From the NCBI RefSeq assembly GCF_003002875.1, contig NZ_PVTH01000001.1, positions 620,001 to 684,000 on the forward strand: DNA of 64,000 nt, given 5' to 3'. This stretch comes from Arcticibacter pallidicorallinus. Its GTDB lineage: Bacteria > Bacteroidota > Bacteroidia > Sphingobacteriales > Sphingobacteriaceae. Positions 34,465-59,232 of this stretch are shown here, in pieces. The notes beneath the pieces were generated by a model. The model made no database searches and was not told the origin of the DNA. It saw only the letters and a program-made list of their open reading frames with translations. Position 1 is the first letter of the stretch. The number at the start of each line of letters is the position of its first letter. A program made the translations under genes and the position numbers.

Positions 34465-34523
34465 ATGCTATAGTATGTTGGGAATTTTGTACAAGAAACA
34501 ACCGATGCTTGCTTTTAATTTTG
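34465..34523 (+). promoter_or_regulatory. PUL promoter 1: 21-bp direct repeat plus -7 box
   Basis: Half-site ATGCTATAGT at 34465, second half-site TTTGTACAAG at 34486 (21 bp apart), -7 box TAATTTTG at 34516 (30 bp after the second). The first half-site is also part of an imperfect palindrome at 34462-34479. It drives the five-gene unit starting at 34586 with an expected leader of about 55 nt. The geometry is identical to four other promoters in the locus. Confidence 0.7.
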
Positions 34524-34585
34524 AAGACTGATAATTGTAACCTAAAAGATCAGTTAACCTAATTAGAAACAAGATCGAATTATAG

Positions 34586-37348
34586 ATGAGGTATTTTATT
34601 TATTTATGTTGTACGGTATTGGCATTTTATGGAGGATCGGCCTCAGCAGACTCTTCTTCTGACAAAAAGAGTAATATAGCCATTGTGATATCCAAGGATG
34701 CGCATCAGCGCATTCAGTTCGGTGCAGAGAAACTTGCCGAGGCACTCAATAAGGCTGGTTACAAAGCCAGGGTTCAGCAACAAAACAAGTTCCCGTCTCG
34801 AAATAATACTATATTGATTACGGAGAAGAGCCAAGCACAGGCCGGACAGCTTCTTAAGCAATCCGGAATCGCAGTTGCCAACCTTGATCATAAAGAAGGT
34901 TTTTCCATAAGCACCTCCTCAAATAACAGGGCGACCATTGTCGGATCTGATGTTACAGGAGCACTCTATGGATGCCTTGAGCTGGTGGATCAGGTTAACG
35001 CAACAGGTAAGCTTCCTCAAAATCTCACGTTAAACGATCATCCTGAAATGGTGCTGCGGGGTACCGCTATCGGTCTGCAGAAGCCAACTGAGCTTCCCGG
35101 CAGAGGAATGTACGAATATCCGTATACACCCGAAGACTTTCCCTGGTTTTATGACAAGGAACTCTGGATTCAATATCTGGATATGTTAGTCGAGAACAGA
35201 TACAATTCCTTGTATTTGTGGAATGGACACCCTTTTTCTTCGCTCGTGAAGGTTAAGGAATATCCTTATGCGCTTGAAGTAAGTGAAGAAACGTTCAAAA
35301 AGAACGAGGAGGTCTTCCGCTTTCTTACTGCCGAAGCGGATAAGAGAGGAATTTGGGTTATTCAGATGTTCTATAATATTATCATTCCTAAGCCTTTCGC
35401 CGAGAAGCACGGTCTAGCTACTCAGGACAGAAACCGTCCAATCATTCCCATCATAGCTGATTATACGCAAAAGTCTATAGCTGCGTTTGTAGAGAAGTAT
35501 CCGAATGTCGGCTTGCTGGTTACTCTGGGAGAGGCGATGGAAGGTAGAGGTCAGGATGATGTCGATTGGTTCACCAAAACAATCATTCCCGGCGTAAAAG
35601 ATGGCTTGAAAGCATTAGGCACAGACATCCAGCCGCCTATCGTACTAAGAGCGCATGATACAGACGCTGATATCGTGATGAAAGAATCATTGCCTATATA
35701 TAAGAATCTGTATACGATGGCGAAGTTCAACGGAGAGGCCTTAACTACTTATACACCGCGTGGCTCATGGGCGGAGCTTCACCGTGAACTGAGCAGAATC
35801 GGCACTGTTCACGTACAGAACGTACATATCCTGGCTAACCTGGAACCATTCCGATACGGCTCTGCTGACTTCATTCAGAAATCGGTTCAGGCTATGCATG
35901 AGATATATGAGTCTAATGCCATTCACGTTTATCCACAGGCTTCTTACTGGGACTGGCCTTATGCCGCTGATAAAGCAAAAAATCGTCTGCTTCAGGTAGA
36001 AAGAGACGCTATATGGTACAAGGCCTGGGCACGTTATGCCTGGAATAGTCGCCGCGACAGATCAAAAGAAGTTACCTACTGGTCTGACCAGTTAGCCGGA
36101 ACTTTTGGTGCCACTCCACAGGCTGCTGAGAATATTCTTAAAGCGTATGAAGAAACTGGTGAAATAGCACCCAAGCTGTTACGTCGTTATGGAATAACCG
36201 ATGGAAACCGTCAGACGCTAACACTGGGTATGACGATGACGCAACTGATCAACCCATTCCGCTACAATCTGTTTACCATGCTTTACGAGTCTGAAGCTCC
36301 TGAAGGTGAGATGATCATTGAATACGCCGAGAAAGAGTGGAATAAGCAAAAGCATATTGGCGAAACTCCTGTCATCGTAGCGGAAGAAGTTCTTGTTCAC
36401 GGAAGAAAAGCAATAGAGGCTATAGAAGCAGCGTCTGCTGGTGTGAGTAAGAATAAAGATGAGTTTGAAAGATTGAAAAATGATGTATACAGCTATAATG
36501 AGCTTGCTGCCTTCTTTTCCGCTAAGGTAGAGGCGGCTCTTTCGATCCTTCGATATAAATACTCAGACGATATTTCTGACCTGGAGCGTGCTCTGCCGCT
36601 GTTGGAAAAAAGTGTAGTGCATTACCGCAAGCTTGCCGACCTGACGAAAGATACGTATCTGTACGCGAACAGCTTGCAAACCAAGCATCGTAAGATTCCA
36701 ATGCGAGGCGTAGATGCCACCTATAAGCACTGGGTGGAAGTATTGCCTGTTTATGAGAAGGAGCTTGAGCATTTCCGCAGAAGTATCGATTCACTCAAAA
36801 ATCCCTCAAATAACAAAGCTACCGCTAAGGTGATAAGATACAGAAACGTGCCGGTTACGGTTTTGAATAAGCGTCCGGAATATTTCACTGTAGAAAAAAA
36901 CGCGAAAGTCTATTCAGACACTACTTTGAAGATCGAAGAGTTCGCTTCTGAGATTGCTGGACTGAAGGGGTTGAAACTATCTAAACGCGATCAGATCAAA
37001 AACGGAACAACCATAGAGTTTACTTCGGCTCAGCCTGTTAAAGTACTGGTCGGCTTCTTCAATGAGAAGAATCCGGGTTTGTTAACGCCGCCGGATCTGG
37101 AGCATGACGTTAGTGCGAACGACTTCGGACAGTCAGAAATTAAGATTGCCAATGCGTTGCTGGCGAGCTCTTTTGCTCCTGTGAATATCCATTCGTACTC
37201 GTTTCCTAAAGGCCGCAATAAGCTTACTCTGGCCAAAGGAGCATGCGTGATTGTCGGATTTGTTGATGCCAATGACCAGGTGCGGTTATATGATGCAGGA
37301 ATAGGGGTTAAGGGTTATAAAAAAGATATAGACTGGTTGTTTGAATAA
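34586..37348 (+). CDS. Exported 920-residue protein with a GH20/GH67-N-like domain; putative uronidase-type glycosidase
   Basis: A signal peptide ends near SASA. Residues about 30-150 form an alpha/beta domain (IVISKDAHQRIQFGAEKLAEAL, VGSDVTGALYGCLELVDQV) like the N-terminal domain preceding GH20 and GH67 barrels. Then comes a barrel-like region (LWIQYLDMLVENRYNSLYLWNG near 190; acidic motif VTLGEAMEGRGQDD near 314; RAHDTDADIV near 352) and a helical tail. I do not recognise a firmly assigned glycoside hydrolase family. A GH67-like or galacturonidase-like exo-enzyme is my best guess from domain order and from the pectic neighbours. It is the first gene of the operon, 38 bp before the MGH1-like gene. 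Confidence 0.6.
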   Translation: MRYFIYLCCTVLAFYGGSASADSSSDKKSNIAIVISKDAHQRIQFGAEKLAEALNKAGYKARVQQQNKFPSRNNTILITEKSQAQAGQLLKQSGIAVANLDHKEGFSISTSSNNRATIVGSDVTGALYGCLELVDQVNATGKLPQNLTLNDHPEMVLRGTAIGLQKPTELPGRGMYEYPYTPEDFPWFYDKELWIQYLDMLVENRYNSLYLWNGHPFSSLVKVKEYPYALEVSEETFKKNEEVFRFLTAEADKRGIWVIQMFYNIIIPKPFAEKHGLATQDRNRPIIPIIADYTQKSIAAFVEKYPNVGLLVTLGEAMEGRGQDDVDWFTKTIIPGVKDGLKALGTDIQPPIVLRAHDTDADIVMKESLPIYKNLYTMAKFNGEALTTYTPRGSWAELHRELSRIGTVHVQNVHILANLEPFRYGSADFIQKSVQAMHEIYESNAIHVYPQASYWDWPYAADKAKNRLLQVERDAIWYKAWARYAWNSRRDRSKEVTYWSDQLAGTFGATPQAAENILKAYEETGEIAPKLLRRYGITDGNRQTLTLGMTMTQLINPFRYNLFTMLYESEAPEGEMIIEYAEKEWNKQKHIGETPVIVAEEVLVHGRKAIEAIEAASAGVSKNKDEFERLKNDVYSYNELAAFFSAKVEAALSILRYKYSDDISDLERALPLLEKSVVHYRKLADLTKDTYLYANSLQTKHRKIPMRGVDATYKHWVEVLPVYEKELEHFRRSIDSLKNPSNNKATAKVIRYRNVPVTVLNKRPEYFTVEKNAKVYSDTTLKIEEFASEIAGLKGLKLSKRDQIKNGTTIEFTSAQPVKVLVGFFNEKNPGLLTPPDLEHDVSANDFGQSEIKIANALLASSFAPVNIHSYSFPKGRNKLTLAKGACVIVGFVDANDQVRLYDAGIGVKGYKKDIDWLFE

Positions 37349-37386
37349 CAGAGTCAACGTAATTAGAAAATACCACACACACATAT

Positions 37387-38952
37387 ATGAACACGACGAT
37401 GCACAAAATGCTTAAATGTTTCGGTTTTGCGATGCTGGCAGTCTTATTTGGGAAAGACGTATCAGCACAGAGCAAGGCACGCGTCTTAAGCACGGATCAA
37501 CTCCGGGAGTATACCAACTATTTTAATTCGTTAGACAGCGAAGATGTTAAGAACTATGTGCCCAATGCACAAACGTTCGACTGGCTGTCTAAGAACGTTC
37601 CATTATTTGAATGTCCGGATTCGGCCATGCAGAAAGTGTACTATTACAGATGGTGGTCTTTCAGAAAACATTTGAAAGAAACTCCCGCGGGCTTCATCTT
37701 TACAGAATTCATAACTCCTGTAAAGCATGCCGGAAAGTACAATGCCATCAGCAGCGCGTTGGGTCACCAGGTTTACGAAGGAAGATGGATTCATAATTCA
37801 GAATATATCAATCAGTATCTGGACTTCTGGCTGTTGAAGGATAAAACCTTCGCCGCTCCAAAGTTTCATGGGTTTAGTAGCTGGGTAGATGATGCCGTTT
37901 ACAATCTTTATCTGGTTAATCAGAACAAGAACTATGTAAAACATATCCTGCCTGCTTTAACAGAAGATTACGGTATCTGGGAGCAGGAGAGGCAGGCAGA
38001 AAGTGGTTTGTTTTGGCAGTACGATGTTAAAGACGCGATGGAGGAATCTGTCAGCGGAGGCCGCAGGGTGAAGAACAGACGTCCTTCCATCAATAGCTAT
38101 ATGTATGGTAATGCCGTGGCTATTGCAAAGATGGCCGACTTGTTCGGTCAGGACAGCCTGAAAAACGTTTACAACAGCAAGGCAAGCTCCATCAAAAAGC
38201 TGGTACTCGACAGCCTTTGGGATAAGAACAGAAAATTCTTCGCTGCCAAACTAGAAGTAGATGGCTCCCTGGCGCCTCGTGAGGCTATAGGTTTTATTCC
38301 CTGGTACTTCAACCTGGTACCCGATAAAAAGGAGTATTCTAAAGCCTGGTTGCAGATAACGGATACCGCTGGTTTCGACGCTCCCTGGGGTTTAACTACC
38401 GCAGAGCGCAGAGAACCAACATTCCGTACACGTGGGTCTGGTCACGGATGTGAGTGGGACGGAGCCATCTGGCCGTTTGCCACTACACAAACACTTAAAG
38501 GTTTGTCTAATTTCCTAAACAACTACAAAAAAAATAGCACCAGCTCACCCGCAGTATTTTTCGATGAACTGAAGCAATACGCTGTATCGCATACCTTTAA
38601 CGGTGAAATCTACCTGGGAGAGTATCAGGACGAAAAAACGGGTTACTGGTTAAAGGGTGATAACCCTAGAAGCCGTTTCTACAACCACTCAGGTTACTGT
38701 GATCTGATCATTAATGATCTTGTTGGCTTAAAGCCTTCAGACGATAATATTCTGCACATCCAACCTCTTATTCCGCAGGATCAATGGGACTGGTTCTGTT
38801 TGGATAACGTCTTGTACCACGGAAAGATAATCACTGTTCTCTGGGATAAAACAGGCGAGAAGTACGGTAAAGGAAAAGGATTCCGCGTATTCGCAGACGG
38901 GAAACAGGTGATGTATTCAGCAAAGTTAAAAGAAGTTAAAGCTAAATTATAA
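37387..38952 (+). CDS. Exported MGH1-like (alpha/alpha)6-barrel glycoside hydrolase
   Basis: A 521-residue protein with a signal peptide (cleavage near DVSAQ). The sequence reads as a helical barrel of the trehalase/GH63-like (MGH1-like) type: VYEGRWIHNSEYINQYLDFWL, FSSWVDDAVYNLYL, PSINSYMYGNAVAIAKMADLFG, and the late HGCEWDGAIWPFATTQTL with its acidic residues, followed by a short beta tail. Several alternative Met starts lie within the first eight residues. The substrate is unknown. It is co-transcribed, 38 bp after the preceding gene and 1 bp before the GH28 gene, so it most likely trims a terminal sugar of the same pectic oligosaccharide. Confidence 0.75.
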   Translation: MNTTMHKMLKCFGFAMLAVLFGKDVSAQSKARVLSTDQLREYTNYFNSLDSEDVKNYVPNAQTFDWLSKNVPLFECPDSAMQKVYYYRWWSFRKHLKETPAGFIFTEFITPVKHAGKYNAISSALGHQVYEGRWIHNSEYINQYLDFWLLKDKTFAAPKFHGFSSWVDDAVYNLYLVNQNKNYVKHILPALTEDYGIWEQERQAESGLFWQYDVKDAMEESVSGGRRVKNRRPSINSYMYGNAVAIAKMADLFGQDSLKNVYNSKASSIKKLVLDSLWDKNRKFFAAKLEVDGSLAPREAIGFIPWYFNLVPDKKEYSKAWLQITDTAGFDAPWGLTTAERREPTFRTRGSGHGCEWDGAIWPFATTQTLKGLSNFLNNYKKNSTSSPAVFFDELKQYAVSHTFNGEIYLGEYQDEKTGYWLKGDNPRSRFYNHSGYCDLIINDLVGLKPSDDNILHIQPLIPQDQWDWFCLDNVLYHGKIITVLWDKTGEKYGKGKGFRVFADGKQVMYSAKLKEVKAKL

Positions 38953-38953
38953 A

Positions 38954-40522
38954 ATGAAAAGGTACACTAAGTTGGGTTTGATCCTGACCATCATCGTAAC
39001 GTGTTTTTATGTTACAACCGCTTCGGCGCAGGGTCATTATAATGTATTAAAATATGGTGCAAAGAACGATAGCAGTAAGCTTGCTACCGAATCAATAAAA
39101 AAGGCAATCGCGGCAGCGTCAAAAGCTGGTGGCGGTACGGTTTACTTCCCGGCAGGTAAATATCTTACGGGACCTATTCATTTGAAAAGTAATATTACCA
39201 TATATATTGAGGCCGGTGCTGAGATACATTTCAGTGATAATTTCGATCATTATTTGCCGATGGTGAAAAGCCGTTGGGAAGGTACTGATGTAATGAATTT
39301 CTCGCCGCTGTTCTACGCAATTAATGCGGAGAATATCGCTATTAAAGGACGGGGGCTGATCGACGGTCATGGCAAGAAATGGTGGGCTTATTCTGAGGTT
39401 CACGTGAAAAAGATCCCTACTTCCCGCTGGCAGGAAGAGTTCAAGCGTCTGAATAAAGACGTGCTTGCACCAGACCTTCCCGGTTGGATCGAGCGCGGTT
39501 TCCTTCGTCCTCCTTTCATCCAGACCATGGATTGCAAAAATGTACTGATAGAAGGGATCACTATCACGAATTCACCTTTCTGGACCATCAATCCTCAATA
39601 CTGTGATAACGTTACAATTTCTAAAGTGACGATCAATAACCCTGATTCGCCGAACTCGGATGGTATAAACCCTGAGTCATGCCGTAATGTGCATATCTCA
39701 GATTGCCATATCAGCACGGGTGACGACTGTATTACGATTAAATCTGGTAAAGACCGCTCAGGAAGAAAGGCCAACGTCCCTGCAGAAAATTATACGATCA
39801 CCAATTGTACCATGTTATCAGGTCACGGGGGTGTGGTAATCGGAAGTGAGATGTCCGCTGGCGTTAGAAGAGTGACCATTTCGAATTGCGTTTTTGACGG
39901 AACAGACCGTGGTTTACGTATTAAATCAGCACGTGGACGTGGTGGTGTCGTTGAGGATATCCGTGTAAATAACGTGATCATGAGAAATATCCGCGATCAG
40001 GCTATCGTTTTGGATCTGCAGTATGCTACCACAACAGTAGAGCCTGTATCAGAACGTACACCGGCTTTCCGTAATATCCACTTCAGCAATATCACTGCTC
40101 ACGGAAACCGTGCGGGATACCTGAACGGTTTAGAAGAAATGCCTATCGAGAATGTTTCGTTCAACAACATGAATATGGATATGCAGACTGGCTTCCGGAT
40201 CAAGAATTCCAAGGATATCGAGTTCCACAATGTTCGTGTGAACAACAAAAAGGGTCCTGTAGTTGAGGCAGAAAATGTAGTCGGACTTCAGATAGATGAT
40301 GTTAGGTCTCAGAAGCCAGTTGCAGGCGAAGCGATTATTGAGCTAACGAACGTAGAAGGCGCGATTATTCAAAACGCCTTCCCTGCTAAAGGAACTGAGG
40401 TCTATCTGAAGGCTAAAGGTGCTAAAACAAGCGATATCGTAGGTAAAGCAAATCACTTCGGAAATGTAAAGACAGTTGTCATTCAGGAAGCTGATGTGAA
40501 GGAAAAAATAAAGTTAGATTAA
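38954..40522 (+). CDS. GH28 polygalacturonase-family enzyme, exported
   Basis: A 522-residue right-handed beta-helix hydrolase with a signal peptide ending TTASAQ. All GH28 active-site motifs are present: SPNSDGINPES near residue 234 (N-x-D), STGDDCITIKSG near 256 (DD), LSGHGGVVIGSE near 290 (GHG) and RGLRIKSARGRGG near 322 (RIK). It cleaves alpha-1,4-galacturonosyl linkages or the GalA-Rha linkage of pectin by inversion. An early FYAINAENIAIKGRGLIDGHG segment is typical of exo-acting or rhamnogalacturonan-type members. The stop codon overlaps the ATG of the next gene (TAATG), which suggests translational coupling. Confidence 0.94.
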   Translation: MKRYTKLGLILTIIVTCFYVTTASAQGHYNVLKYGAKNDSSKLATESIKKAIAAASKAGGGTVYFPAGKYLTGPIHLKSNITIYIEAGAEIHFSDNFDHYLPMVKSRWEGTDVMNFSPLFYAINAENIAIKGRGLIDGHGKKWWAYSEVHVKKIPTSRWQEEFKRLNKDVLAPDLPGWIERGFLRPPFIQTMDCKNVLIEGITITNSPFWTINPQYCDNVTISKVTINNPDSPNSDGINPESCRNVHISDCHISTGDDCITIKSGKDRSGRKANVPAENYTITNCTMLSGHGGVVIGSEMSAGVRRVTISNCVFDGTDRGLRIKSARGRGGVVEDIRVNNVIMRNIRDQAIVLDLQYATTTVEPVSERTPAFRNIHFSNITAHGNRAGYLNGLEEMPIENVSFNNMNMDMQTGFRIKNSKDIEFHNVRVNNKKGPVVEAENVVGLQIDDVRSQKPVAGEAIIELTNVEGAIIQNAFPAKGTEVYLKAKGAKTSDIVGKANHFGNVKTVVIQEADVKEKIKLD

Positions 40523-43341
40523 TGATAAAAAACATGCGTTTAACGCTTGGTCTTGTGTTTGCAGGCTTCCTCAGCGGATCCCTGCAGGCACAGGACCTTA
40601 AGTTATGGTATAACCAGCCTGCTGAGCAGTGGACCGATGCCCTTCCTCTTGGGAATGGCAGAATAGGTGCTATGGTTTTCGGAGGAGTTAATCGGGAGCA
40701 TATTCAGTTCAACGAGGAAACGCTCTGGACAGACTCTCCGAGAGATTACAATATGCCCGATGGCGCAAAATATCTCAACGATATACGCCAGTTGCTTTTT
40801 GCAGGTAAGCAAAAAGAAGCGGAAGCTCTGGCTGCGAAGCACTTTATGGGCCTAAAGTCCAAAGAAGAGGAGAGAGCTCCATGGGTAGAAAAGGTCAGAG
40901 ACCTCGCCAGTTTGAAAAGCAATCCTTCTGCTGCAAAATACAACGACAGCAAATGGAAGACCATACAGTTGCCAGCGATTAACGGATGGGAAACGGTTGG
41001 CTTAGAAGGTCTTGACGGTGCGGTGTGGCTCAGGAATTCCTTTGTGCTTCCTGATGACTGGGCCGGAAAAGATCTGGTCTTTGATCTGGGCAAGATCCGT
41101 GATCATGATTTTACCTATGTCAACGGTCACCTGGCAGGCACAACCGCCAATGCTTCCGACGGTAGAATGTACGTCGTATCGGCAGATAAACTAAAGAAAG
41201 GCGTAAATCACATCTCCATACAAGTTTTAAACTATTTCGATAAAGGCGGACTTGTTGGTTACAAGGATACTTCGCGTCCAATGCGAGTATATCCTAAAGG
41301 CGCTTCAGAACAGCAGGCGGTTATTCTAAGCAGATCGTGGAAGTACATGATCCAGGATGATGATCCGCCTCTGGTGGGTACCTATCAGGCTAGCTACCAG
41401 CCGTTCGGCGATCTACTATTAACGTTTCCTGATGCCTCCAAAGGTGTGTCAGATTACAAACGTGAGCTGGACCTGACGACTGCTATTTCCAAAACGACCT
41501 ACGTATCCAAAGGGGTGCGTTATACGAGAGAATACTTTGTGAGTCAGCCAGACCAATGTTTGGTGGTGCGCATAACTTCCGACAAAAAACAGTCTATCAA
41601 CTTTCAGGCGGGATTAAGAAGTTCTCACAAGCAATCCGCAGTACGGGTGATCGACCCAACTACTCTTGGCCTTTCTTTGCAGGTGAAAGACGGCGCTCTC
41701 AAAGGCGAAAGCATTTTGAAGGTGAACGCTATCGGCGGAAAGACGAGAGTGAAAAACGGACAGATCCATGTCAGTGGTGCCAATGAAGTAGTGCTGTATC
41801 TTACTGCCGCCACCAACTATAAGAATTTTAAAGATGTATCTGGCGATGCAGCTGCCCTTGCCAAAGCGGATATGGAAAAGCTGGCACAGCAAAGCTACGG
41901 CAGTCTGCTGAACAAACATTTGAATGAATATCAGCAGTATTTCAACAGGCTGTCTTTATCTTTTGGTAGTTCTTCTGAAAGCACGCTTCCCACCGATCAG
42001 CGTATCGAGCAATTTGCTAAGAATAACGATCCTGCATTCGCTGCGCTGTACTTACAATACGGAAGATATCTCCTGATTTCAAGCTCGCGTCCCGGTACCC
42101 GGCCCGCAAACTTGCAGGGTATTTGGAACGACCTGCTCACACCATCATGGGGAAGCAAGTACACCACGAATATCAACCTGGAGATGAACTACTGGCCGGC
42201 CGAAAGCCTCAACTTGTCGGAGATGCACGAGCCTCTTTTTGACATGATTGAAGAATTAAGCCAAACCGGTGCGGAAACTGCCCGGAAATACTATAATGCT
42301 CCTGGTTTTGTCGTACACCACAATACAGATATCTGGAGAGGAACAGCACCTATCAATAACTCCAACCACGGCATCTGGGTTTCCGGAGGAGCGTGGTTAA
42401 GCACACACCTGTGGGAGCGTTACAACTATACCCAGGATAAAGAGTTCCTACGCAACAGAGCGTATCCGCTGATGCGTAAAGTGGCCTTGTTTTTCAATTC
42501 ATACCTCGTAAAGGATCCTGCTACAGGTTTGCTGGTCAGCGGCCCTACTAACTCGCCTGAGCAGGGTGGACTGGTGATGGGAGCGGCGATGGACCATCAG
42601 ATCATCCGGGACCTGTACAGTGCATGTATCAAGGCTTCAGAGATCCTGAATACTGATGGTGAATTACGAAAAATAATGAAAAGTAACCGCGATCGCCTGA
42701 CACCAAATAAGATTGGCCGCTTCGGACAATTGCAGGAGTGGACGGTTGATATTGACGACACAACCAATAAGCACAGACACGTTTCCCACCTTTGGGGGGT
42801 GCATCCCGGCGCGGACATCACCTGGGATAAAGATCCGGAGATGATGAAGGCAGCCAGACAATCTCTGATCTACAGGGGAGATGAAGGTACGGGATGGAGC
42901 CTGGCCTGGAAGATTAACTTCTGGTCGCGCTTCAAAGATGGTGATCACGCCTGGAAGATGGTTCACATGCTGATCAGTCCCGCAGCGAAAGGCGGAGGAT
43001 CATACGTCAACCTATTCGACGCCCATCCACCTTTCCAGATCGACGGAAACTTCGGAGGAGCCGCCGGAATTGCGGAGATGCTGCTTCAAAGCCACTCAGG
43101 ATATCTCGATATCCTTCCCTCACTGCCGTCAGCACTGAAAGATGGCGAGATCAAAGGACTCTGCGCACGCGGAGGCTTTGAGCTGGAGATGAAATGGAAA
43201 GACGGAAAACTGTCTGACCTTAGCGTGCTATCGAAAGCGGGTAATACCTGTACGGTGAAATATGCGGGCAAAGAATTAAAGTTCGCGACTGAACGTGGAA
43301 AGCGGTATCCAATTGATTCCGCCTTACAATTAATAAAATAA
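40522..43341 (+). CDS. GH95 alpha-L-fucosidase/alpha-L-galactosidase with an inserted beta-sandwich domain
   Basis: A 939-residue exported inverting hydrolase (signal ending LQAQ). GH95 signatures: ALPLGNGRIGAMVFGG at the N-terminus, TTNINLEMNYWPAES with the Asn550/Asn552 pair, NSPEQGG with general acid Glu680, and PPFQIDGNFGGAAGI with Asp841. The family removes terminal alpha-1,2-L-fucose or L-galactose. The N-terminal domain is interrupted at about residues 113-285, between KHFMGLK and YQASYQPFGDLLL, by a segment containing DGAVWLRNSFVLP and VNGHLAGTT that looks like a galactose-binding/GH2-N jelly roll. Usual GH95 length is nearer 750-800. It overlaps the GH28 stop by 1 nt and precedes the GH2 gene by 2 bp. 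Confidence 0.93.
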   Translation: MIKNMRLTLGLVFAGFLSGSLQAQDLKLWYNQPAEQWTDALPLGNGRIGAMVFGGVNREHIQFNEETLWTDSPRDYNMPDGAKYLNDIRQLLFAGKQKEAEALAAKHFMGLKSKEEERAPWVEKVRDLASLKSNPSAAKYNDSKWKTIQLPAINGWETVGLEGLDGAVWLRNSFVLPDDWAGKDLVFDLGKIRDHDFTYVNGHLAGTTANASDGRMYVVSADKLKKGVNHISIQVLNYFDKGGLVGYKDTSRPMRVYPKGASEQQAVILSRSWKYMIQDDDPPLVGTYQASYQPFGDLLLTFPDASKGVSDYKRELDLTTAISKTTYVSKGVRYTREYFVSQPDQCLVVRITSDKKQSINFQAGLRSSHKQSAVRVIDPTTLGLSLQVKDGALKGESILKVNAIGGKTRVKNGQIHVSGANEVVLYLTAATNYKNFKDVSGDAAALAKADMEKLAQQSYGSLLNKHLNEYQQYFNRLSLSFGSSSESTLPTDQRIEQFAKNNDPAFAALYLQYGRYLLISSSRPGTRPANLQGIWNDLLTPSWGSKYTTNINLEMNYWPAESLNLSEMHEPLFDMIEELSQTGAETARKYYNAPGFVVHHNTDIWRGTAPINNSNHGIWVSGGAWLSTHLWERYNYTQDKEFLRNRAYPLMRKVALFFNSYLVKDPATGLLVSGPTNSPEQGGLVMGAAMDHQIIRDLYSACIKASEILNTDGELRKIMKSNRDRLTPNKIGRFGQLQEWTVDIDDTTNKHRHVSHLWGVHPGADITWDKDPEMMKAARQSLIYRGDEGTGWSLAWKINFWSRFKDGDHAWKMVHMLISPAAKGGGSYVNLFDAHPPFQIDGNFGGAAGIAEMLLQSHSGYLDILPSLPSALKDGEIKGLCARGGFELEMKWKDGKLSDLSVLSKAGNTCTVKYAGKELKFATERGKRYPIDSALQLIK

Positions 43342-43343
43342 TT

Positions 43344-47243: not shown

Positions 47244-47322
47244 TGGTATTGAAAGGGGTTTCCTCTGATTATACCAAACGAACTTAACCCAGTCAAATAA
47301 TATTAGTTATTTGGCCTTTGAT

Positions 47323-48882: not shown

Positions 48883-48898
48883 AAGACTAATTTAATAT

Positions 48899-50776: not shown

Positions 50777-50844
50777 CTCTCTGGATTTATCTCGTTGCTG
50801 ACTGGAAGCAAGTATACATTAATTTTTCTATTTAGGATGCTAAG

Positions 50845-51030: not shown

Positions 51031-52659
51031 ATGTTGGAAGGAAAGAAGGAAGTTTTATTAGTTGCAAGTGGGGACTTGCGTATCGCTGCAAATCAGAATT
51101 GCTGGGCTACCCAAAACGAAATGGAGCAGCTCCTGGCCAAGGCGATCGAAAAGCTGGGCTGGACGGTAAAACGCGCTCATCATTATAACGAAGCAAAAAA
51201 ACACGGTTTCATCGATTCTCAGAAAATGGGGATGGAGATATTTCGCAATCTTGATCCAGAACAACCCATCATTGTAGCGGAGAGTGTTTGGCAATACAGC
51301 CATCATGTGCTTTCCGGATTGACAACACATAAAGGGCCGATACTTACGGTAGCAAATTGGAGCGGACAATGGCCAGGCCTTGTAGGTATGCTGAACCTGA
51401 ATGGTTCTTTGAGCAAGGCAGGTGTAGAGTACAGCTCACTTTGGAGTGAAACTTTTGAAGACAGCTTCTTTACAAACTCGTTAAAGGAGTGGTTTGAAAC
51501 CGGAATGATCAAGCACGATCAGAGCCATGTAAAAGATTATAGTCTGGTGAAGATTCCGCAGGCTGAAGAGCAACTGGGTAAGGACTTCGCGAAAGCCTTC
51601 AAAAACCGCAAAGGGATTATGGGGATTTTTGATGAAGGCTGTATGGGCATGTACAACGCGATCGTTCCGGATGATCTTTTGCACCGCACAGGATTCTTCA
51701 AGGAGCGTCTGAGCCAGTCAGCCTTATTCGCCGCAATGCGGAAAGTGAGTGTGGATGAGGCAGAAGAAGCCCTGAACTGGCTTCTTGAGCAGGGGATGAC
51801 CTTCGAGTGGGGAGAGAATCCTGAAACTGAGCTGACCAGAGAGCAAACTTTGGAACAGTTGAAGATGTACATCGCATCGCTTCGTATCGCAGAGGAATTC
51901 GGTTGTGATACCATCGGTATCCAGTATCAGCAGGGACTAAAAGATCTTACTGCAGCAAGTGATTTGACAGAAGGACTTTTGAATAATAAACTGCGTCCAC
52001 CGGTTCTTTCTGAATCAGGAGAAGAGATTTACGCAGGACATGCTCTTCCTCACTTCAATGAAGTAGACGAGTGTGCCGGTATAGACGGATATGTTACCTA
52101 TCATTTATGGGAGCAGCTGGGATTAGACGGATCCAACACGCTTCACGACCTGCGCTGGGGTAAGCAACGGAATGTGAACGGCGTTGATGAATTTGTATGG
52201 TTGTTCATGATATCCGGAGCAGCCCCTGCATCGCACTTTACAGATGGATATAAAGGCGCATCAAGTGTTCGTCAACCATCTATGTTCTTCCCTTTCGGAG
52301 GCGGAACGTTGAAAGGAATCAGTAAGCCGGGAAGTATCGTATGGAGCCGGGTATTTGTAATGGACAATAAGCTTCATTGCGATCTGGGTGTAGGTGAGGC
52401 TGTGTCACTTCCATTAGAAGAAAGTCAGAAGATCTGGTCAGAAACTAACCCTGAGTGGCCGCTTATGCATGCGGTGCTAAAAGGAGTAACGCGCGATCAG
52501 ATGATGGCACGTCATAAAGCAAACCATATTCAGGTAGCGTATGCTCCTGATGCGGCGAAAGCACAGGAAATTTGCCGCATTAAGGCCGCCGCGATGACAG
52601 GACTGGGTATTGAAGTGCACTTCTGTGGAGACCTTGATTTTAACGGTTCCCAAAATTAA
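51031..52659 (+). CDS. L-fucose isomerase-like sugar isomerase
   Basis: A 542-residue cytoplasmic protein (no signal) resembling the L-fucose/L-arabinose isomerase superfamily. Features: the N-terminal Rossmann-like region (EVLLVASGDLRIA), AESVWQYSHHVLSGL and LTVANWSGQWPGLVGMLNL, then metal-site-like acidic and histidine segments GIFDEGCMGMYN, NEVDECAGIDGYVTYHLWEQ and GAAPASHFTDGYKGA. The family interconverts aldoses and ketoses with Mn2+. L-fucose, L-galactose or L-arabinose released by the locus are plausible substrates, and the GH95 enzyme would supply L-fucose or L-galactose. No ketose kinase or fuculose-phosphate aldolase lies nearby. The stop overlaps the next ATG (TAATG). Confidence 0.8.
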   Translation: MLEGKKEVLLVASGDLRIAANQNCWATQNEMEQLLAKAIEKLGWTVKRAHHYNEAKKHGFIDSQKMGMEIFRNLDPEQPIIVAESVWQYSHHVLSGLTTHKGPILTVANWSGQWPGLVGMLNLNGSLSKAGVEYSSLWSETFEDSFFTNSLKEWFETGMIKHDQSHVKDYSLVKIPQAEEQLGKDFAKAFKNRKGIMGIFDEGCMGMYNAIVPDDLLHRTGFFKERLSQSALFAAMRKVSVDEAEEALNWLLEQGMTFEWGENPETELTREQTLEQLKMYIASLRIAEEFGCDTIGIQYQQGLKDLTAASDLTEGLLNNKLRPPVLSESGEEIYAGHALPHFNEVDECAGIDGYVTYHLWEQLGLDGSNTLHDLRWGKQRNVNGVDEFVWLFMISGAAPASHFTDGYKGASSVRQPSMFFPFGGGTLKGISKPGSIVWSRVFVMDNKLHCDLGVGEAVSLPLEESQKIWSETNPEWPLMHAVLKGVTRDQMMARHKANHIQVAYAPDAAKAQEICRIKAAAMTGLGIEVHFCGDLDFNGSQN

Positions 52660-53333
52660 TGATTATGAGAAAATTGACATTGTTTGCTTTAGCGTTCTGT
52701 TGTTTCGTATCCGCTGGCTTTGCCCAGCAAGGTACAGAGGCGGAAAGAGATGCTTATAGAAAGGTAATTACCGGAAGAGCTGATAAGATCGCTGTGACCC
52801 TGGGGATTCAGGATACCGGAAAGAAAAATGTGGTTCGCGATATTATCGCGGACCAATATATTGCTTTGAATGATATCCACTCTCCGAGGGATGAGAAAAT
52901 TAAGTCGCTAAAGGCTGATAAGAGTCTCGACAAGGATGTCCGGGCCGCTAGAATCAGCCAGATAGAGGCGGAGGCAGGTGCGAAGCTGGCTCGTTTGCAT
53001 AATGATTATATGATAAAGCTTGGCAAGCAGCTAAGTAAAGATCAGATTGAGAAAGTAAAGGACGGAATGACTTACTCGGTTCTTCCGATTACTTACAAAG
53101 GCTATATGGAAATGTTGCCTGATTTGAAGGTATCTCAGAGAGAGCAAATTCTTGCCTATTTGACCGAGGCGAGGGAATATGCAGTAAGTGCAGGATCTTC
53201 TGATAAGAAACACGGCTGGTTTGGAAAGTATAAAGGAAAGATTAACAATTACTTATCCGCTGAGGGAGTAGAGACGAAAAAGGCCCGGGAAGAGTGGGAA
53301 AGGAAGTTGAAAGAAAGGGAACAAAGTAAGTAA
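52659..53333 (+). CDS. DUF3826 family exported protein
   Basis: A 224-residue protein with a signal peptide (MRKLTLFALAFCCFVSAGFAQ from the third codon; ATG 52665 is an alternative start). The mature part is charged and predicted helical: GRADKIAVTLGIQDTGKKNVVRD near 35, QYIALNDIHSPRDEKIK, then VLPITYKGYMEMLPDLKVSQREQILAYLTEAREYA near 145-180. I recognise this as the DUF3826 family found in Bacteroidota pectin-related loci; no activity is known to me. It is translationally coupled to the isomerase gene (1-nt overlap) although the two products should be in different compartments. The final 20 residues are strongly charged. Confidence 0.8.
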   Translation: MIMRKLTLFALAFCCFVSAGFAQQGTEAERDAYRKVITGRADKIAVTLGIQDTGKKNVVRDIIADQYIALNDIHSPRDEKIKSLKADKSLDKDVRAARISQIEAEAGAKLARLHNDYMIKLGKQLSKDQIEKVKDGMTYSVLPITYKGYMEMLPDLKVSQREQILAYLTEAREYAVSAGSSDKKHGWFGKYKGKINNYLSAEGVETKKAREEWERKLKEREQSK

Positions 53334-53361
53334 TCTTACGTATAAAAAGGGGAATGGTAAT

Positions 53362-53420
53362 ATGGTACAAATTCATGAGAAAATACTACAGGATATGCCT
53401 GACCCCTTGTTATATATTTG
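53362..53420 (+). promoter_or_regulatory. PUL promoter 4: 21-bp direct repeat plus -7 box (susC/susD)
   Basis: Half-sites ATGGTACAAA at 53362 and ATACTACAGG at 53383 (21 bp apart), perfect -7 box TATATTTG at 53413 (30 bp after the second). The transcript should start near 53428, giving the susC mRNA a leader of almost 200 nt. Confidence 0.75.
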
Positions 53421-53624: not shown

Positions 53625-56600
53625 ATGGACTTAATTTTACAATCAAGCTTTCAGCGAACTAAGGTTCCTGCGATGATCTTGATCTGTCTGTTTGTATTAC
53701 AAAGTACTTCTTTTGCTACAAATACAGCACGGATGATCACAGCTGAAAGGTCGCTGAACGCACGTGTTAACGTTACGGGAACAGTGAAGGACACTAAGGG
53801 AGAAGTCCTTCCTGGTGTAACGGTCAGAATTAAAGGAACAACTACAGGCACCAGTACTGACATTAACGGTGTATTCCGGCTGAACTTGCCTGTTGGTAAT
53901 GAAACACTTGTCTTTACCTATATTGGTTTTCAGACTAAAGAGATCGTAGCGTCAGGTACGAGATTGGACGTACAGCTAATTGAATCTGCCAATGACTTAC
54001 AAGAGGTGGTAGTAGTTGGGTACGGCATCCAGAAAAGAGAGCACTTGACCGGTGCAGTAGAATCGGTTAAGCTAGATGAGGTGGCGGATCTTCCGGTAGG
54101 AAACATGGGAGCTGCTTTGTCAGGTCGTATTCTTGGTCTTGGCGTTAGCGGCGGAACTTCTCGTCCAGGATCTACAGCAACTCTGACAATTAGAAATCCT
54201 GTTACATTGGCAAAAGATGGAGGTAACTTAGAACCTCTATATGTAATTGACGATATTATTCAAATCGGAGCGGATGGTCGTAACAGCAATGCACTGTTCA
54301 ATAACCTTGATCCCTCAGAAATTGAGAGCATATCGATATTGAAGGACGGTTCAGCGGCTGTATACGGTTCAAGAGCTGCAAATGGTGTGATTTTGGTTCG
54401 CACAAAAAGAGGAAAGAATGGTGATCCAAAGTTCAGCTACAGTGGATCCTATGCAGTGAACGACGAGGCTTACAGAACTAAAATGATGAGTGCCTATGAA
54501 TTTGGACAATATTTCAATATCATGAACGGTCCAAACGGAGCAAATGCACTGCCTAATTCTACCACATATAAAGATCGTGTCTTTACTCAAGATGAGCTCG
54601 ATCACTTCAAAAACATCAATTATGACTGGTTGGATCAGGCATGGTCGTCTGCATCAAACATGCGTCATACGCTGAATGTTAGTGGAGGTACTGATAAAGC
54701 GACTTATTTTGCGGGTATATCTTACTTTACACAAGATGGTAACTTAAGCAGCTTAGATTACGATCGCTGGAACTTCAGAGCAGGAACAGATGTAAAGGTT
54801 GGTAAAAATATCAAAACAGGACTTCAAGTTTCTGGTAATTATTCCAACTTGACAAAGACCTTTAACAAGATTGGTGGCGAGAATGACGAAAATGACTATA
54901 TCAACTTGTTAAGAGCACCACGTTACATCCCGATGTATGTTGATGGGTATCCTGTGAAATTGCCTTCTTCGAACGATGCTTTTTCGCGGTATCATTTCTA
55001 TGAGATCGAAAAGCTCGGCAACCTTGCTGCAACGAAAGACAGAACTATGACTGTGAATCTTTTTGCGGAATATGAGGTGCCATTTATTCAGGGGCTGAAA
55101 GCAAGAGCATCTTACGGCCGGAACATGGGTTCAAATAATGGATCTCAGGTAGGAACGCTCTTGAGATTATATGAGTTCAACCGTACCGGTGGTCACCAGC
55201 ATATCTATGATCAGGGTGCTACTGTGAATTCTTACAGAGACTGGGAAAACGGAAACCGTCTGTATTACTCCAACGGCAACTCTAACTCGTATCAGTTGAA
55301 CTTTACTGCAAGTTATGCGAGAGATTTTGGAAAGCATAGCGTTGGTGGATTGTTCTCTGTTGAAAGAGCTGAAGCGGAATCCTCACAAGAGGATGTTTGG
55401 AAAGGATCACCGTTGTTGTCAACTAATGGTCAGTTCGGAAGTGCCTTTGGTGCAATTGACGGAAGAACATCTGCTGCTGAATCAGGATCACTTTCTTATG
55501 TAGGTAGAGTTAATTACGCCTATGATGACAAGTACCTGGCTGAATTTTTATTCCGTACTGATGCATCTACTAAGTTTGCACCTGAAAATTACTGGGGCAA
55601 ATTCTACTCTGCATCAGCCGGATGGATTTTGTCAAAGGAAGATTTCTTTAACGTAGATGCAATTGACTTCTTGAAGCTGAGATACTCCATCGGTTTATTA
55701 GGAAAAGATGACACCAAAGCTTGGTTGTGGAGACAACGTTATACTTATCAGAATGGTAAGGGAGCTGTTTTCGGATCAGATAGTTCTCCATCCTCTACAG
55801 GTATGAAGATGGAAGCGTCGCCAAACAGAGACGCTACTTGGAGCGATGAGTTAAAGAATAACCTTGGACTTGATGCGCGATTCTTAAAGGACCGACTATC
55901 GGCTAATATTGAAGGTTTTTATAACAAGGGAACCGATATGTTGATCGAACGTACGGGAATTGTACCGATTACTATTGGGGGTTCTGTAGCTTCAGAGAAC
56001 TATGCAGCTATGGATCTTTTTGGATACGAGATTGGTTTGGGATGGAGAGATAAGATTGGAAAGGATTTTAACTACGGTATCGACGCCCGTTTCAATTGGT
56101 ATGATAATAAAGTGCATAAAGGGAATTTCAATGACACTGATATTATGTATCCGTGGAATGCTCAGCCAGGAAAATCGAGCGACAACGGAGTTTGGGGATA
56201 CGACTACTTAGGTATGTTCAAGAATCAGGCTGACATTGATGCATATGTAACTCAAAATAATATCACTCAGGTGTTCGGTACTCCGGTTAACCAGCTGAGA
56301 CCTGGAACTCTTTACTACAGAGACGTAAGAGGTCCGTTACAAGGTGATGGAAGCTTTGCTCCTGCTGACGGTATAATTGACGAGCATGACCAGATTAAGC
56401 TGGCAAACAGGGCTAATAATCATTATGGTATGGGACTTACCCTGAGAGCAAGTTACAAAGGCTTCAGTGCGGATGTAGTTATCTCCGGTTCTTTCGGTGG
56501 ATGGTCTGAAATCGATGGCAGTACACGTAAGAAATTGAACAATGATATCACCAGAGGATTCCAGAGTCTTCCAGCGATATGGGGTAATATCTATGATCCG

Positions 56601-56897
56601 GAAATTAATCCTACCGGTACGATGCCTAACCCTAACTTCAGCAATATCAGTTTAGATCCTGTTTCGAATTTCTGGAAAGTCAATAGCTTTAGAATGCGCA
56701 TGAGAAATTTCAATGTTGGCTATAGCATACCAAAGAAATATACTCAGGCAATCAATGTGAACAATGCACGTGTTTTTGTTACAGGAACTAATCCATTAAA
56801 TTTCTACAATCCGTTTGATTTTAAAGATTCTGATGGCGCCTATGACTCATTCCCGATGTTAAGAACGTTCTCTTTTGGTGTAAACGTATCGTTATAA
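53625..56897 (+). CDS. SusC/RagA-family TonB-dependent outer-membrane transporter
   Basis: A 1090-residue transporter. Signal region with hydrophobic AMILICLFVLQSTSFA, carboxypeptidase-regulatory-like domain (VTGTVKDTKGEVLPGVTVRI, about 48-125), TonB-box-like LQEVVVVGYGI, plug with ISILKDGSAAVYGSRAANGV near residue 235, and a barrel ending FSFGVNVSL. It pairs with the SusD protein 36 bp downstream to import the oligosaccharides made by the surface enzymes of this locus. Its codons look more A/T-rich at third positions than those of the aldonate operon (visual impression, not measured). Expression is probably AraC-controlled through the promoter at 53362-53420. Confidence 0.96.
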   Translation: MDLILQSSFQRTKVPAMILICLFVLQSTSFATNTARMITAERSLNARVNVTGTVKDTKGEVLPGVTVRIKGTTTGTSTDINGVFRLNLPVGNETLVFTYIGFQTKEIVASGTRLDVQLIESANDLQEVVVVGYGIQKREHLTGAVESVKLDEVADLPVGNMGAALSGRILGLGVSGGTSRPGSTATLTIRNPVTLAKDGGNLEPLYVIDDIIQIGADGRNSNALFNNLDPSEIESISILKDGSAAVYGSRAANGVILVRTKRGKNGDPKFSYSGSYAVNDEAYRTKMMSAYEFGQYFNIMNGPNGANALPNSTTYKDRVFTQDELDHFKNINYDWLDQAWSSASNMRHTLNVSGGTDKATYFAGISYFTQDGNLSSLDYDRWNFRAGTDVKVGKNIKTGLQVSGNYSNLTKTFNKIGGENDENDYINLLRAPRYIPMYVDGYPVKLPSSNDAFSRYHFYEIEKLGNLAATKDRTMTVNLFAEYEVPFIQGLKARASYGRNMGSNNGSQVGTLLRLYEFNRTGGHQHIYDQGATVNSYRDWENGNRLYYSNGNSNSYQLNFTASYARDFGKHSVGGLFSVERAEAESSQEDVWKGSPLLSTNGQFGSAFGAIDGRTSAAESGSLSYVGRVNYAYDDKYLAEFLFRTDASTKFAPENYWGKFYSASAGWILSKEDFFNVDAIDFLKLRYSIGLLGKDDTKAWLWRQRYTYQNGKGAVFGSDSSPSSTGMKMEASPNRDATWSDELKNNLGLDARFLKDRLSANIEGFYNKGTDMLIERTGIVPITIGGSVASENYAAMDLFGYEIGLGWRDKIGKDFNYGIDARFNWYDNKVHKGNFNDTDIMYPWNAQPGKSSDNGVWGYDYLGMFKNQADIDAYVTQNNITQVFGTPVNQLRPGTLYYRDVRGPLQGDGSFAPADGIIDEHDQIKLANRANNHYGMGLTLRASYKGFSADVVISGSFGGWSEIDGSTRKKLNNDITRGFQSLPAIWGNIYDPEINPTGTMPNPNFSNISLDPVSNFWKVNSFRMRMRNFNVGYSIPKKYTQAINVNNARVFVTGTNPLNFYNPFDFKDSDGAYDSFPMLRTFSFGVNVSL

Positions 56898-56933
56898 TCT
56901 GAAGCGGATAATTGCATATTAATTAAAATAATC

Positions 56934-58964
56934 ATGAAAAGAAATATAAAGCTTATATGCCTGTTCCTATCAGTTATGGTAGCTGTGACTAGCTGTAAAG
57001 ATGATTTCCTTGCAGAGAAGGGCGACTTCGGGGGAATTAATGAGGAAGTTTTCAAAGATGCTCAGACGGCAAAGGCATATGTGGATTACATATATGGATT
57101 GATCCTTCCTGCAAACAATGCTACGACATTGATATCAACCAATAACGCCTCGGAAAATGGTCAGTATAATACCGTTTTTACTCAGACAACTGAGGAGCTT
57201 GCCGGAGAAACTGACTTCAATAAAGTTTGGGCTCAGATTTCCTATACCAACAATCACGCGAACAAATATTTCGGACAGCGTATGGGAACCGGGATCAGCA
57301 ATAACACCTGGACTCGTATCAAGCAGATTAATATCTTTCTAACTGAGGTAGATAAGCACGGCTTGCCTGAGCAAACAAGGAATGAGCTAAAAGGACAGAT
57401 GTACTTTTGGAGAGCCTGGCAGTATTTTGAACTGGTCAAACTATTCGGAGGAGTTCCATTGGTATTAGAACCTCAGAACCCTATTTTATCTGGAAGCACT
57501 GATGCAGAAGTTCCGAGAAGTTCGACTTCTGAATGTATTGAGCAGATTTGCGCCGATTTAGATTTAGCTACTTCTTTGCTTCCCGGAAAATGGGGTAATG
57601 ACGATTGGGGCCGCATCACTAGCGGAGCAGCAGCAGCATTAAAGGGAAGAGTGTTGTTAACATGGGCAAGCCCTTTGTTTAATCCTGGAGATGATGTGGC
57701 TCGTTGGGAGAGATCCTACCAGGCGAACGCGGCAGCTAAAAGTCTTTTGGAAACTAGTGGATTCGGATTGTTTAAGACCGGAGGTACAGCAAATGCTACG
57801 GCATGGGAAAATATGTTTATAGCGGAAGTTGGAAATCCTGAAGCAGTTATCGTGTATAACTTCAACACTGTGAATTCTGATCAGGTAATGAAGTTCAATG
57901 GCTGGGAGCAGGCAATACGTCCGAAAGAAATCAGTGGCGGTGGTTCTGTTTCTCCTACGAAGCAGATGCTAGACGCATTTCCGATGAAAGACGGAAAGAT
58001 GCCTGGAAACAGTGCAGATCCATCGAAGTACACCTACGATTTAAATAAGTTCTACAAAAACAGAGATCCTCGCTTTTATAAAACATTCGCGTACAACGGT
58101 TCGATCTGGCCTTATAAAGAGAGTCCGAACTTTAAAGTATGGAGCTATACCTGGAAGAAAAAAGCATCAGATACTAATCCAACGGCAACAACAGAGAGTC
58201 GTGGTGCTAATGCCAGTGGAGTTTACCTTCGTAAAGCATCCAATCCTGCTGCCTCCAATTCACTTGGTGATTTCAAGATCAGCGGGACGAACTTCATGGA
58301 AATGCGCTTTGCTGAAGTTGTCTTGAATCTGGCGGAAAGTGCTATCGGCGCCGGAAAGCTTGCTGAAGGTCTTGAAGGCATAAAATCTATCAGAGAAAGA
58401 GCTGGTGTTGAGAATGCGGATGGAAATTATGGACTATCTGCTGCTTCAGGCGATCGCGATAAGCTTTTTGCTGCGGTACTTAATGAAAGAAGAGTTGAGC
58501 TCGCTTACGAAGGAAAACGTTTCTTTGATCTTAGACGCTGGAAGTTGTTTGAAGAAAACTCTGCCACAGCTGCCAGACTAGGAGTTACACCATTAAACGG
58601 AACCCGCAGAACAGGTCTTTATATTGCTGTGAAGACGGCTAACGGAGCTGATTATGTACACGCTTCTCAAGATCCTTTGATCAAAGCCGCTAACGGAAGT
58701 GTGCCGGTTATTGATAGAGATGCTTATCCTGCTGGTATAACGACTCATGATCAGTATGTTGATTATCTATACGAAAATCATTTTAAAATTACAGTCAAAG
58801 ATGATCTTGATAAAACGAATCCTGTTGACTGGAAATTCAAATGGTATCCTGAGTATTACTTCTTTGGACTTAATCAAACTGTGCTGAGCGGCAGTCCTTA
58901 CCTGGAGCAGACTCAGGGATGGAACAGCCTAAATGGCATGGGAACTTTCGATCCATTGAAATAG
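56934..58964 (+). CDS. SusD/RagB-like glycan-binding lipoprotein (large)
   Basis: A 676-residue SusD-like protein, longer than the usual 500-600. Lipoprotein signal MKRNIKLICLFLSVMVAVTSC, then KDDFLAEKGDFGGINEEVF. Core motifs include ELKGQMYFWRAWQYFELVKL, FGGVPLVLEPQNP, and near the C-terminus NERRVELAYEGKRFFDLRRWK. The extra length lies in the C-terminal ligand-facing region (about 560-670, including HDQYVDYLYENHFKIT), which may shape recognition of a branched pectic substrate; that is an inference. It is followed by a strong terminator. Confidence 0.95.
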   Translation: MKRNIKLICLFLSVMVAVTSCKDDFLAEKGDFGGINEEVFKDAQTAKAYVDYIYGLILPANNATTLISTNNASENGQYNTVFTQTTEELAGETDFNKVWAQISYTNNHANKYFGQRMGTGISNNTWTRIKQINIFLTEVDKHGLPEQTRNELKGQMYFWRAWQYFELVKLFGGVPLVLEPQNPILSGSTDAEVPRSSTSECIEQICADLDLATSLLPGKWGNDDWGRITSGAAAALKGRVLLTWASPLFNPGDDVARWERSYQANAAAKSLLETSGFGLFKTGGTANATAWENMFIAEVGNPEAVIVYNFNTVNSDQVMKFNGWEQAIRPKEISGGGSVSPTKQMLDAFPMKDGKMPGNSADPSKYTYDLNKFYKNRDPRFYKTFAYNGSIWPYKESPNFKVWSYTWKKKASDTNPTATTESRGANASGVYLRKASNPAASNSLGDFKISGTNFMEMRFAEVVLNLAESAIGAGKLAEGLEGIKSIRERAGVENADGNYGLSAASGDRDKLFAAVLNERRVELAYEGKRFFDLRRWKLFEENSATAARLGVTPLNGTRRTGLYIAVKTANGADYVHASQDPLIKAANGSVPVIDRDAYPAGITTHDQYVDYLYENHFKITVKDDLDKTNPVDWKFKWYPEYYFFGLNQTVLSGSPYLEQTQGWNSLNGMGTFDPLK

Positions 58965-58986
58965 TTAAATATACGTTACCAATCAG

Positions 58987-59020: not shown

Positions 59021-59115
59021 ATTTGATGACAGTCTTCCTAAACGGAATATGCTGCTGACAGAAGGGATGCTGCGCGGGCTCGCCTGGCTTATTGTAACAA
59101 TCTAAATGATATACA

Positions 59116-59140
59116 GGGATGCATTTCGCATTCCTTTTTT
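59116..59140 (+). terminator. Second rho-independent terminator-like hairpin
   Basis: GGGATGC (59116-59122) pairs with GCATTCC (59128-59134), 7 bp with one wobble, followed by TTTTTT. It lies about 95 bp after the first terminator with no ORF between. It may be a backup terminator or the end of a small RNA. Confidence 0.6.
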
Positions 59141-59173
59141 CGTTTTATAGCGGGCTATGGCTTTCAGGATAAG

Positions 59174-59232
59174 ATGCTACATAAGATTGAGAAAATGCTA
59201 TATAAAACTAAGCCCTCGTACGTATACATTTG
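59174..59232 (+). promoter_or_regulatory. PUL promoter 5: 21-bp direct repeat plus -7 box
   Basis: Half-sites ATGCTACATA at 59174 and ATGCTATATA at 59195 (21 bp apart, the clearest pair; both continue with A-rich sequence), perfect -7 box TACATTTG at 59225 (30 bp after the second). It drives the DUF6298/GH140 unit with a leader of about 100 nt. Confidence 0.78.

Follow-up and report, generated by a model that had tools for sequence, protein, structure and literature searches.

Five promoters of a pectin-type gene cluster in Arcticibacter pallidicorallinus share a tandem 21-bp element, the likely operator of a local AraC-family protein

A shared promoter element and the genes that it precedes

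We analysed a 64,000-nucleotide stretch of the genome of Arcticibacter pallidicorallinus (assembly GCF_003002875.1, contig NZ_PVTH01000001.1, positions 620,001 to 684,000 of the forward strand), referred to below as the window. Five plus-strand promoters in the window carry two similar half-sites in tandem, 21 bp apart and at a fixed distance from the -7 box, and amongst them lies a gene for an AraC-family protein that is likely to be the cognate regulator. The promoters belong to a plus-strand gene cluster that runs from 34.6 kb to beyond the window end and includes several glycoside hydrolases (GH). The predicted operator-promoters, the units that follow them and the regulator gene are arranged as follows.

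34459..34523, plus strand: predicted operator-promoter 1 of the alpha-galacturonidase unit (first gene at 34586); half-sites 34459-34472 and 34480-34493, -7 box 34516-34523, E 2.9e-10
34586..46850, plus strand: unit 1, alpha-D-galacturonidase (NF049878), MGH1-like GH, GH28, GH95 and GH2 with a malectin domain
47179..47243, plus strand: predicted operator-promoter 2 of the symporter and aldolase operon; half-sites 47179-47192 and 47200-47213, box 47236-47243, E 9.1e-12
47311..49831, plus strand: unit 2, SSF sodium/solute symporter and DHDPS-family aldolase
49901..50776, minus strand: AraC-family regulator of 291 aa with an AraC_binding (cupin) N-terminal domain and a C-terminal domain of two helix-turn-helix (HTH) motifs; proposed cognate regulator
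50839..50903, plus strand: predicted operator-promoter 3, a variant between araC and the divergent gene for a 542-aa protein; half-sites 50839-50852 and 50860-50873 (the proximal one altered), box 50896-50903, E 2.1e-8
51031..53333, plus strand: unit 3, 542-aa protein (weak L-fucose isomerase C-terminal similarity) and DUF3826 protein
53356..53420, plus strand: predicted operator-promoter 4 of the susC/susD pair; half-sites 53356-53369 and 53377-53390, box 53413-53420, E 1.5e-10
53625..58964, plus strand: unit 4, SusC-like/SusD-like transport pair
59168..59232, plus strand: predicted operator-promoter 5 of the DUF6298/apiosidase operon; half-sites 59168-59181 and 59189-59202, box 59225-59232, E 2.1e-12
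59342..63893, plus strand: start of unit 5, DUF6298 protein and apiosidase-like GH, in closely spaced genes that seem to run past the window end

The first-pass annotation had described each site as a triplet of two ATGSTAYA 8-mers separated by 21 bp and a -7 box starting 30 bp (+30) after the second 8-mer. On re-reading, every coordinate of the five triplets proved exact, as did the presence of the TAYA core in nine of the ten half-sites, the exception being TGCA at 50866. The 8-mer itself was correctly positioned and too short, for the conserved bases extend six positions further upstream; in the window sites G, T, A, A stand ahead of the distal 8-mer and G, A, A ahead of the proximal one. 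Each half-site is about 14 bp long and GATAANATSSTAYA-like, the repeat period is exactly 21 bp and the box at +30 is TAnnTTTG-like. Amongst 70 dissimilar sites (the five from the window and 65 from relatives) the distal consensus is G-A-T-A-A-N-A-T-S-S-T-A-Y-A and the proximal consensus G-A-N-A-A-A-A-T-N-N-T-A-Y-A, followed 22 bp on by TAnnTTTG, relatives' sites with fewer than five of the six box positions having been removed beforehand, so that the box columns of this alignment are selected. The distal half lies nearer to its consensus than the proximal half (mean 15.3 versus 10.2 bits in 68 sites), partly owing to variant sites such as that beside araC. No third half-site was found on average from -126 to +119 bp around 68 sites, a range that stops short of more distant looping sites such as araO2. 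In three loci (L006, L055 and L072) two pairs overlap with an offset of 21 bp, so that three half-sites follow one another in phase.

A pair scan of the window scored the five sites at 28.6-36.4 bits and every other pair at 11.9 bits or below, and the promoters previously listed as lacking the pattern (25993, 21788 and the region upstream of 3456) indeed gave no pair. When the five sites were scored by leaving one out, 21-33 bits remained per pair (two halves summed), and a matrix made from the 65 non-window sites alone, which had originally been found by a window-trained matrix, placed the five window sites at the top (weakest 26.2 bits, next place 8.7). In 12 Mb of first-order Markov sequence, scanned on both strands, there were no pairs above 20 bits and four above 18. 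Control DNA from the same genome, amounting to 400 kb in 20 stretches (18 arbitrary and two selected, namely the one that follows the window and that of an AraC paralogue), contained a single pair above 18 bits (18.1), at C1:697201, which lies in the same cluster 13 kb past the window.

For comparison with relatives, the AraC protein was used in a search that found 141 relatives, of which the best 80 loci were kept; many of these are from Pedobacter and they are therefore non-independent. In these loci, 58 pairs of half-sites of at least 9 bits are spaced by 21 bp, whereas no other spacing between 8 and 60 bp accounts for more than four. Pairs above 18 bits number 166, against none in one Markov resampling, and the box, which was not used for their selection, lies at exactly +30 in 156 of the 166. 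A more general proposition, that the 21/+30 arrangement is a common code ahead of TAnnTTTG boxes, was tried and rejected: the genome's own 348 boxes showed no excess of 21-bp repeats with the known sites left out, and in the 80 loci, with 1,551 boxes, the spacing seen most often at a minimum of eight matches was 21 bp (51, against 43 for the runner-up), which is a weak signal; both box totals were counted before the known sites were left out.

A sequence-only profile of 30 sites (R1) found seven matches at E<1e-3 in the 4.1-Mb genome, the next standing at E 0.21; the scan scored 150 of 2,411 first-look candidates, and weak sites may be missed. Matches are therefore rare in the genome. Six of the seven lie within 43 kb around the AraC gene, and two lie outside the window.

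C1:697195-697260 (L092:13195-13260): predicted sixth operator, 13 kb past the window end, ahead of a rhamnosidase-like (GH78-type) gene and then a partly BT0996-like gene
C5:67970-68033 (L109:1501-1564): predicted seventh operator, on another contig, ahead of a pectate-lyase-like gene

The idea of a compact regulon is supported; it needs amendment in that the regulon would extend beyond the five promoters of the window. The gene that follows C5:67970 has a partial match to the pectate lyase PelZ (104.8 bits, where the model requires 840) and matches no Pfam family at 1e-5; this other-contig gene is an example of the remote regulon members that the operator is precise enough to predict.

The gene content of the cluster points to a pectin substrate. 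The next 20 kb of the genome encode GH43-like, BT_1020-propeller, esterase-like, GH2, three rhamnosidase-like and one partly BT0996-like protein. Together with the units of the window, this gives apiosidase, alpha-galacturonidase, GH95, GH2, GH28, GH78, BT0996-like, BT1020-like, DUF3826 and SusC/SusD components, that is, an enzyme set of the kind expected for rhamnogalacturonan-II (RG-II), assigned by family matches of which several to NCBIfam models fall below their cut-offs. BT1020 and members of GH95 and GH28 have roles in RG-II breakdown. According to published work, BT0996, BT1010, BT1012 and BT1017 act in RG-II breakdown in B. thetaiotaomicron, and DUF3826 is a module of BT1017. The DUF3826 and BT0996-like content, read with these roles, therefore makes the cluster look like an RG-II-type locus. 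The 542-aa protein (51031-52659) is 66-84% identical in seven relatives and belongs to a conserved core with the aldolase and the symporter; its Pfam match to the L-fucose isomerase C-terminal domain falls just under the cut-off, it gave no NCBIfam match at 1e-5, and neither sequence nor profile searches brought up a relative of solved structure at 0.01.

The AraC protein and the motif in related bacteria

The protein encoded at 49901-50776 has the make-up of an AraC/XylS-family regulator. Its C-terminal two-HTH domain matches PF12833 at 68.0 bits (cut-off 33.6) and PF00165 at 41.8 bits (cut-off 26.6), whilst residues 22-77 match the cupin-like domain PF02311 at 26.9 bits (cut-off 21.1); no kinase or receiver match was found in this protein. 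In the predicted structure (mean pLDDT 72) the HTH helices are present, and Foldseek matches it to AraC-family proteins, with weak matches of the N-terminal part to the regulatory domains of AraC and RhaR. The HTH segments are nearly invariant amongst 21 aligned AraC proteins.

A pair above 16 bits is present in 77 of the 80 AraC-relative loci, and one that also has at least five of the six box positions in 75 (179 of 197 pairs). The pairs lie predominantly on the strand opposite araC (186 of 197), and recur at two places, the symporter/aldolase promoter and the araC-divergent promoter. The loci come from Pedobacter, Arcticibacter, Spirosoma, Hymenobacter, Larkinella, Flavobacterium and other genera, and motif presence is demonstrated in Sphingobacteriaceae, in Flavobacterium and in several genera of the Cytophagales. 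Four Flavobacterium loci keep araC, the 542-aa gene, the aldolase, the symporter and the motif; none of the other window proteins was matched in the 20 kb fetched for each. In one locus, that of Arcicella rosea (L054, NZ_JACHKT010000016.1), the AraC/SusCD cluster adjoins genes for a ParA-like protein and a Rep3 replication initiator, and this copy may therefore be plasmid-borne.

The motif and the regulator travel together across related bacteria. Amongst 201 family genomes, an AraC orthologue occurs in 73 and the motif in 74; the two coincide in 68, whilst five contain the AraC only, six the motif only and 122 neither (Fisher p 5e-40, uncorrected for relatedness). In three of the five AraC-only genomes (G019, G086 and G117) a full-length match below threshold lies about 0.14 kb from the AraC gene, as does a match piece of 28 positions in a fourth (G003), at E-values of 0.001-0.66, some of which, judged singly, are no better than chance. 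All of the 150 strongest matches listed fall in AraC-positive genomes, at a distance from the AraC gene of up to 20 kb in 88 cases and of up to 100 kb in 110; the remaining 40 lie farther away on the same contig (14) or on other contigs (26). The pair was present in all 12 of these remote sites that were picked by hand, and the ten downstream proteins scanned comprised three GH78 rhamnosidases, two SusC proteins, a symporter, a GH2 protein, a DUF6298 protein and two without a Pfam match. In a phylum-wide sample of 247 genomes, the motif occurs in all four AraC-positive genomes, three of which are also in the family sample, and in one of the 243 others; the orthologue limit for this sample was fixed before the search and after the family list had been seen.

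Both this co-occurrence and the adjacency of the gene to the sites support the earlier proposal that the local AraC gene encodes their regulator. We consider it likely, as judged from sequence, that the five sites are operators of the 49901-50776 protein, which would bind as two monomers in tandem and activate in the class II manner.

Alternative regulators

Several observations weigh against this assignment. Three of the 80 loci (L037, L049 and L052) have no pair above 16 bits, and the fifth AraC-only genome (G121) has no match closer to its AraC gene than 28 kb. Six genomes carry the motif and no close AraC orthologue, with full or nearly full matches in G020 (two, L117 and L123) and G021 (one, L118) and partial matches in G056, G005, G069 and G079. 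The limit for calling an orthologue in the family (best E 1e-115 or better) was set after the list had been seen, the family genomes are related to one another, and relatives of the same family supplied part of the training sites of the profile. Moreover, it is the geometry by itself that suggests activation over repression. Two further points of this kind concern other AraC-type proteins of the genome, a paralogue and a hybrid sensor, and are taken up below.

The most serious alternative regulator is the AraC paralogue at C1:245356-246228 (L087:10356-11228), which is 63% identical to the local protein and might control the sites alone or alongside it. Because the two DNA-binding domains share 83 of 108 residues, with HTH helix sequences that are the same by eye, the paralogue might bind the sites too, and a paralogue locus in another genome (L063) contains two motif pairs. 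In A. pallidicorallinus, however, no strong pair stands close to the paralogue (the best within about 1 kb scores 9 bits), no profile match lies nearby, and across genomes the sites follow the local AraC; control by the paralogue is improbable. The product of the second AraC gene of the window (5107-5988) shows 27% identity across 104 DNA-binding-domain residues.

The window also contains a gene for a hybrid two-component system (HTCS) protein.

21854..25927, plus strand: HTCS with Reg_prop sensor, kinase, receiver and AraC-type HTH; rival regulator, judged unlikely

A protein of this type deserves attention since, in the portions of PMC3878776 available, the predicted motifs of Bacteroides HTCSs are direct repeats at an average distance of 21 bp, and in two genomes with many motif matches an HTCS homologue (G015:C117:54861-58886, 42% identical; G063:C1:1059369-1063400, 40% identical) is separated from the AraC orthologue by 6-7 kb. 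Nevertheless, the susC promoter directly downstream of the HTCS gene lacks the motif, and the sensor part finds no match at E<=1e-15 in any of the 80 loci, which reach at most about 10 kb to either side, and L046, L049 and L052 match only the kinase or HTH parts. The best homologues in the family are no more than 50% identical, the top three candidates per genome having been scored, so that other HTCSs may lie near the AraC gene. In the near relative G041, an AraC protein 89% identical to the local one is encoded inside a motif cluster, whereas the best HTCS homologue is 48% identical and encoded on another contig. Taken together, control of the sites by the HTCS of the window is very unlikely. 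The HTCS gene is followed by a second SusC/SusD pair whose promoter is without the motif, and this region (21854-30920) is probably a separate regulatory unit.

A third alternative is that the repeats form a conserved promoter element read by RNA polymerase itself or by a third factor that travels with the cluster. Since the AraC gene and the target genes move together, co-occurrence cannot separate AraC from such a factor. A general promoter element would be expected more often than seven times in 4.1 Mb, and the 348 boxes of the genome lack any surplus of 21-bp repeats; in the Flavobacterium loci, the motif persists where araC, the aldolase, the symporter and the 542-aa gene are the only window proteins matched. 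We therefore give almost no weight to this explanation, and retain the local AraC protein as the likely regulator.

Predicted mode of action and the variant site beside araC

All five promoters have the layout of a class II operator, their tandem half-sites being spaced by about 21 bp and the proximal half-site falling on the upstream promoter element, given the -33 position of this element in Bacteroidota promoters of the -33/-7 type. This geometry upholds the suggestion that an AraC-type direct-repeat operator is placed here as a class II activator site. Two AraC monomers would sit in tandem on one face of the DNA, each reading one 14-bp half-site, the half-sites being two helical turns (21 bp) apart. 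Since 22 bp separate the end of the proximal half from the -7 box, which puts that end at the place of the -33 element, the regulator may take over the -33 contact and recruit RNA polymerase once its sugar ligand is bound. The closer fit of the distal half to consensus would be in keeping with a distal site held constitutively and a ligand-gated proximal site. The regulon would comprise the RG-II-type pectin cluster and the remote pectate-lyase-like gene. Binding, the geometry of the dimer, activation, the ligand and the transcription start are all inferred in this scheme, whilst the fixed 21/+30 geometry is itself quantitative evidence on how AraC activators may dock at Bacteroidota promoters.

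Escherichia coli AraC, likewise a cupin and two-HTH protein, acts in the class II manner at araBAD I1-I2, where two tandem half-sites lie 21 bp apart with the proximal one at -35. In the present promoters, which differ from araBAD in being of the Bacteroidota -33/-7 type, the proximal half is at -33. Within the Bacteroidota, the first-pass annotation had held such a DNA code to be undescribed, a claim that does not stand because 21-bp direct repeats were published in 2013 for RhaR (PMC3870299) and for HTCSs (PMC3878776), as the accessible parts of both papers show. Bacteroides RhaR is also a soluble AraC-family protein with predicted 21-bp direct repeats that acts in plant-sugar catabolism; it differs in serving the L-rhamnose pathway, the likeness noted here is one of layout, and the text available contained no promoter-distance rule (PMC3870299). 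The B. thetaiotaomicron HTCSs, as far as that paper is accessible, share the AraC-type DNA-binding domain, tandem sites of about 21 bp and the control of polysaccharide loci; for BT0981, the HTCS of its rhamnogalacturonan-induced locus BT0977-1030, the study was unable to arrive at a motif (PMC3878776). HTCSs are membrane sensor kinases, whereas 49901-50776 encodes a small cupin-type protein; the sole solved chain matched by the AraC profile at E<=1e-10 is 12aw, the DNA-binding part of an HTCS protein, which may explain why the two share the 21-bp layout. Zobellia galactanivorans CgrA is another AraC-family positive regulator of a Bacteroidota polysaccharide locus, in that case for carrageenan, and the accessible part of its description reports no operator motif (PMC5698469). 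A search of open-licence PubMed Central found no paper on the present AraC regulator or its motif, and the portions of PMC11253607 and PMC12125979 available held nothing on a spacing rule in Bacteroidota. New here are the assignment of regulator, motif and regulon to one another, the fixed promoter distance and the conserved variant site beside araC. For an RG-II-type locus they name a regulator, outline a small regulon and supply an operator sequence that can be tested, and the operator could guide the design of inducible promoters in Sphingobacteriaceae.

The variant site lies in the gap between araC and the divergent gene (50777-51030). Amongst sites of at least 16 bits with at least five of the six box positions, to which the count was confined, 97% of 68 araC-divergent sites have A in place of the core T at column 22, as against 2% of 111 others. 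In the araC-divergent sites of relatives (68 sites), the proximal half retains its A-box and loses the TA core at columns 25-26. Counting from the distal half, a -7-like box that could serve araC is placed at offset 18 in 41 of 73 loci, where the operator would overlap the promoter of araC; the layout varies, the corresponding candidate box being at offset 29 in L003 and in the window. This arrangement suggests that araC is autoregulated through the shared operator. More tentatively, and with the balance of our judgement somewhat against it, the site may be a two-way switch in which strong distal binding represses araC and the weak proximal half, once filled in the presence of ligand, activates the divergent gene; such a switch would have a feedback threshold unlike that of the other promoters.

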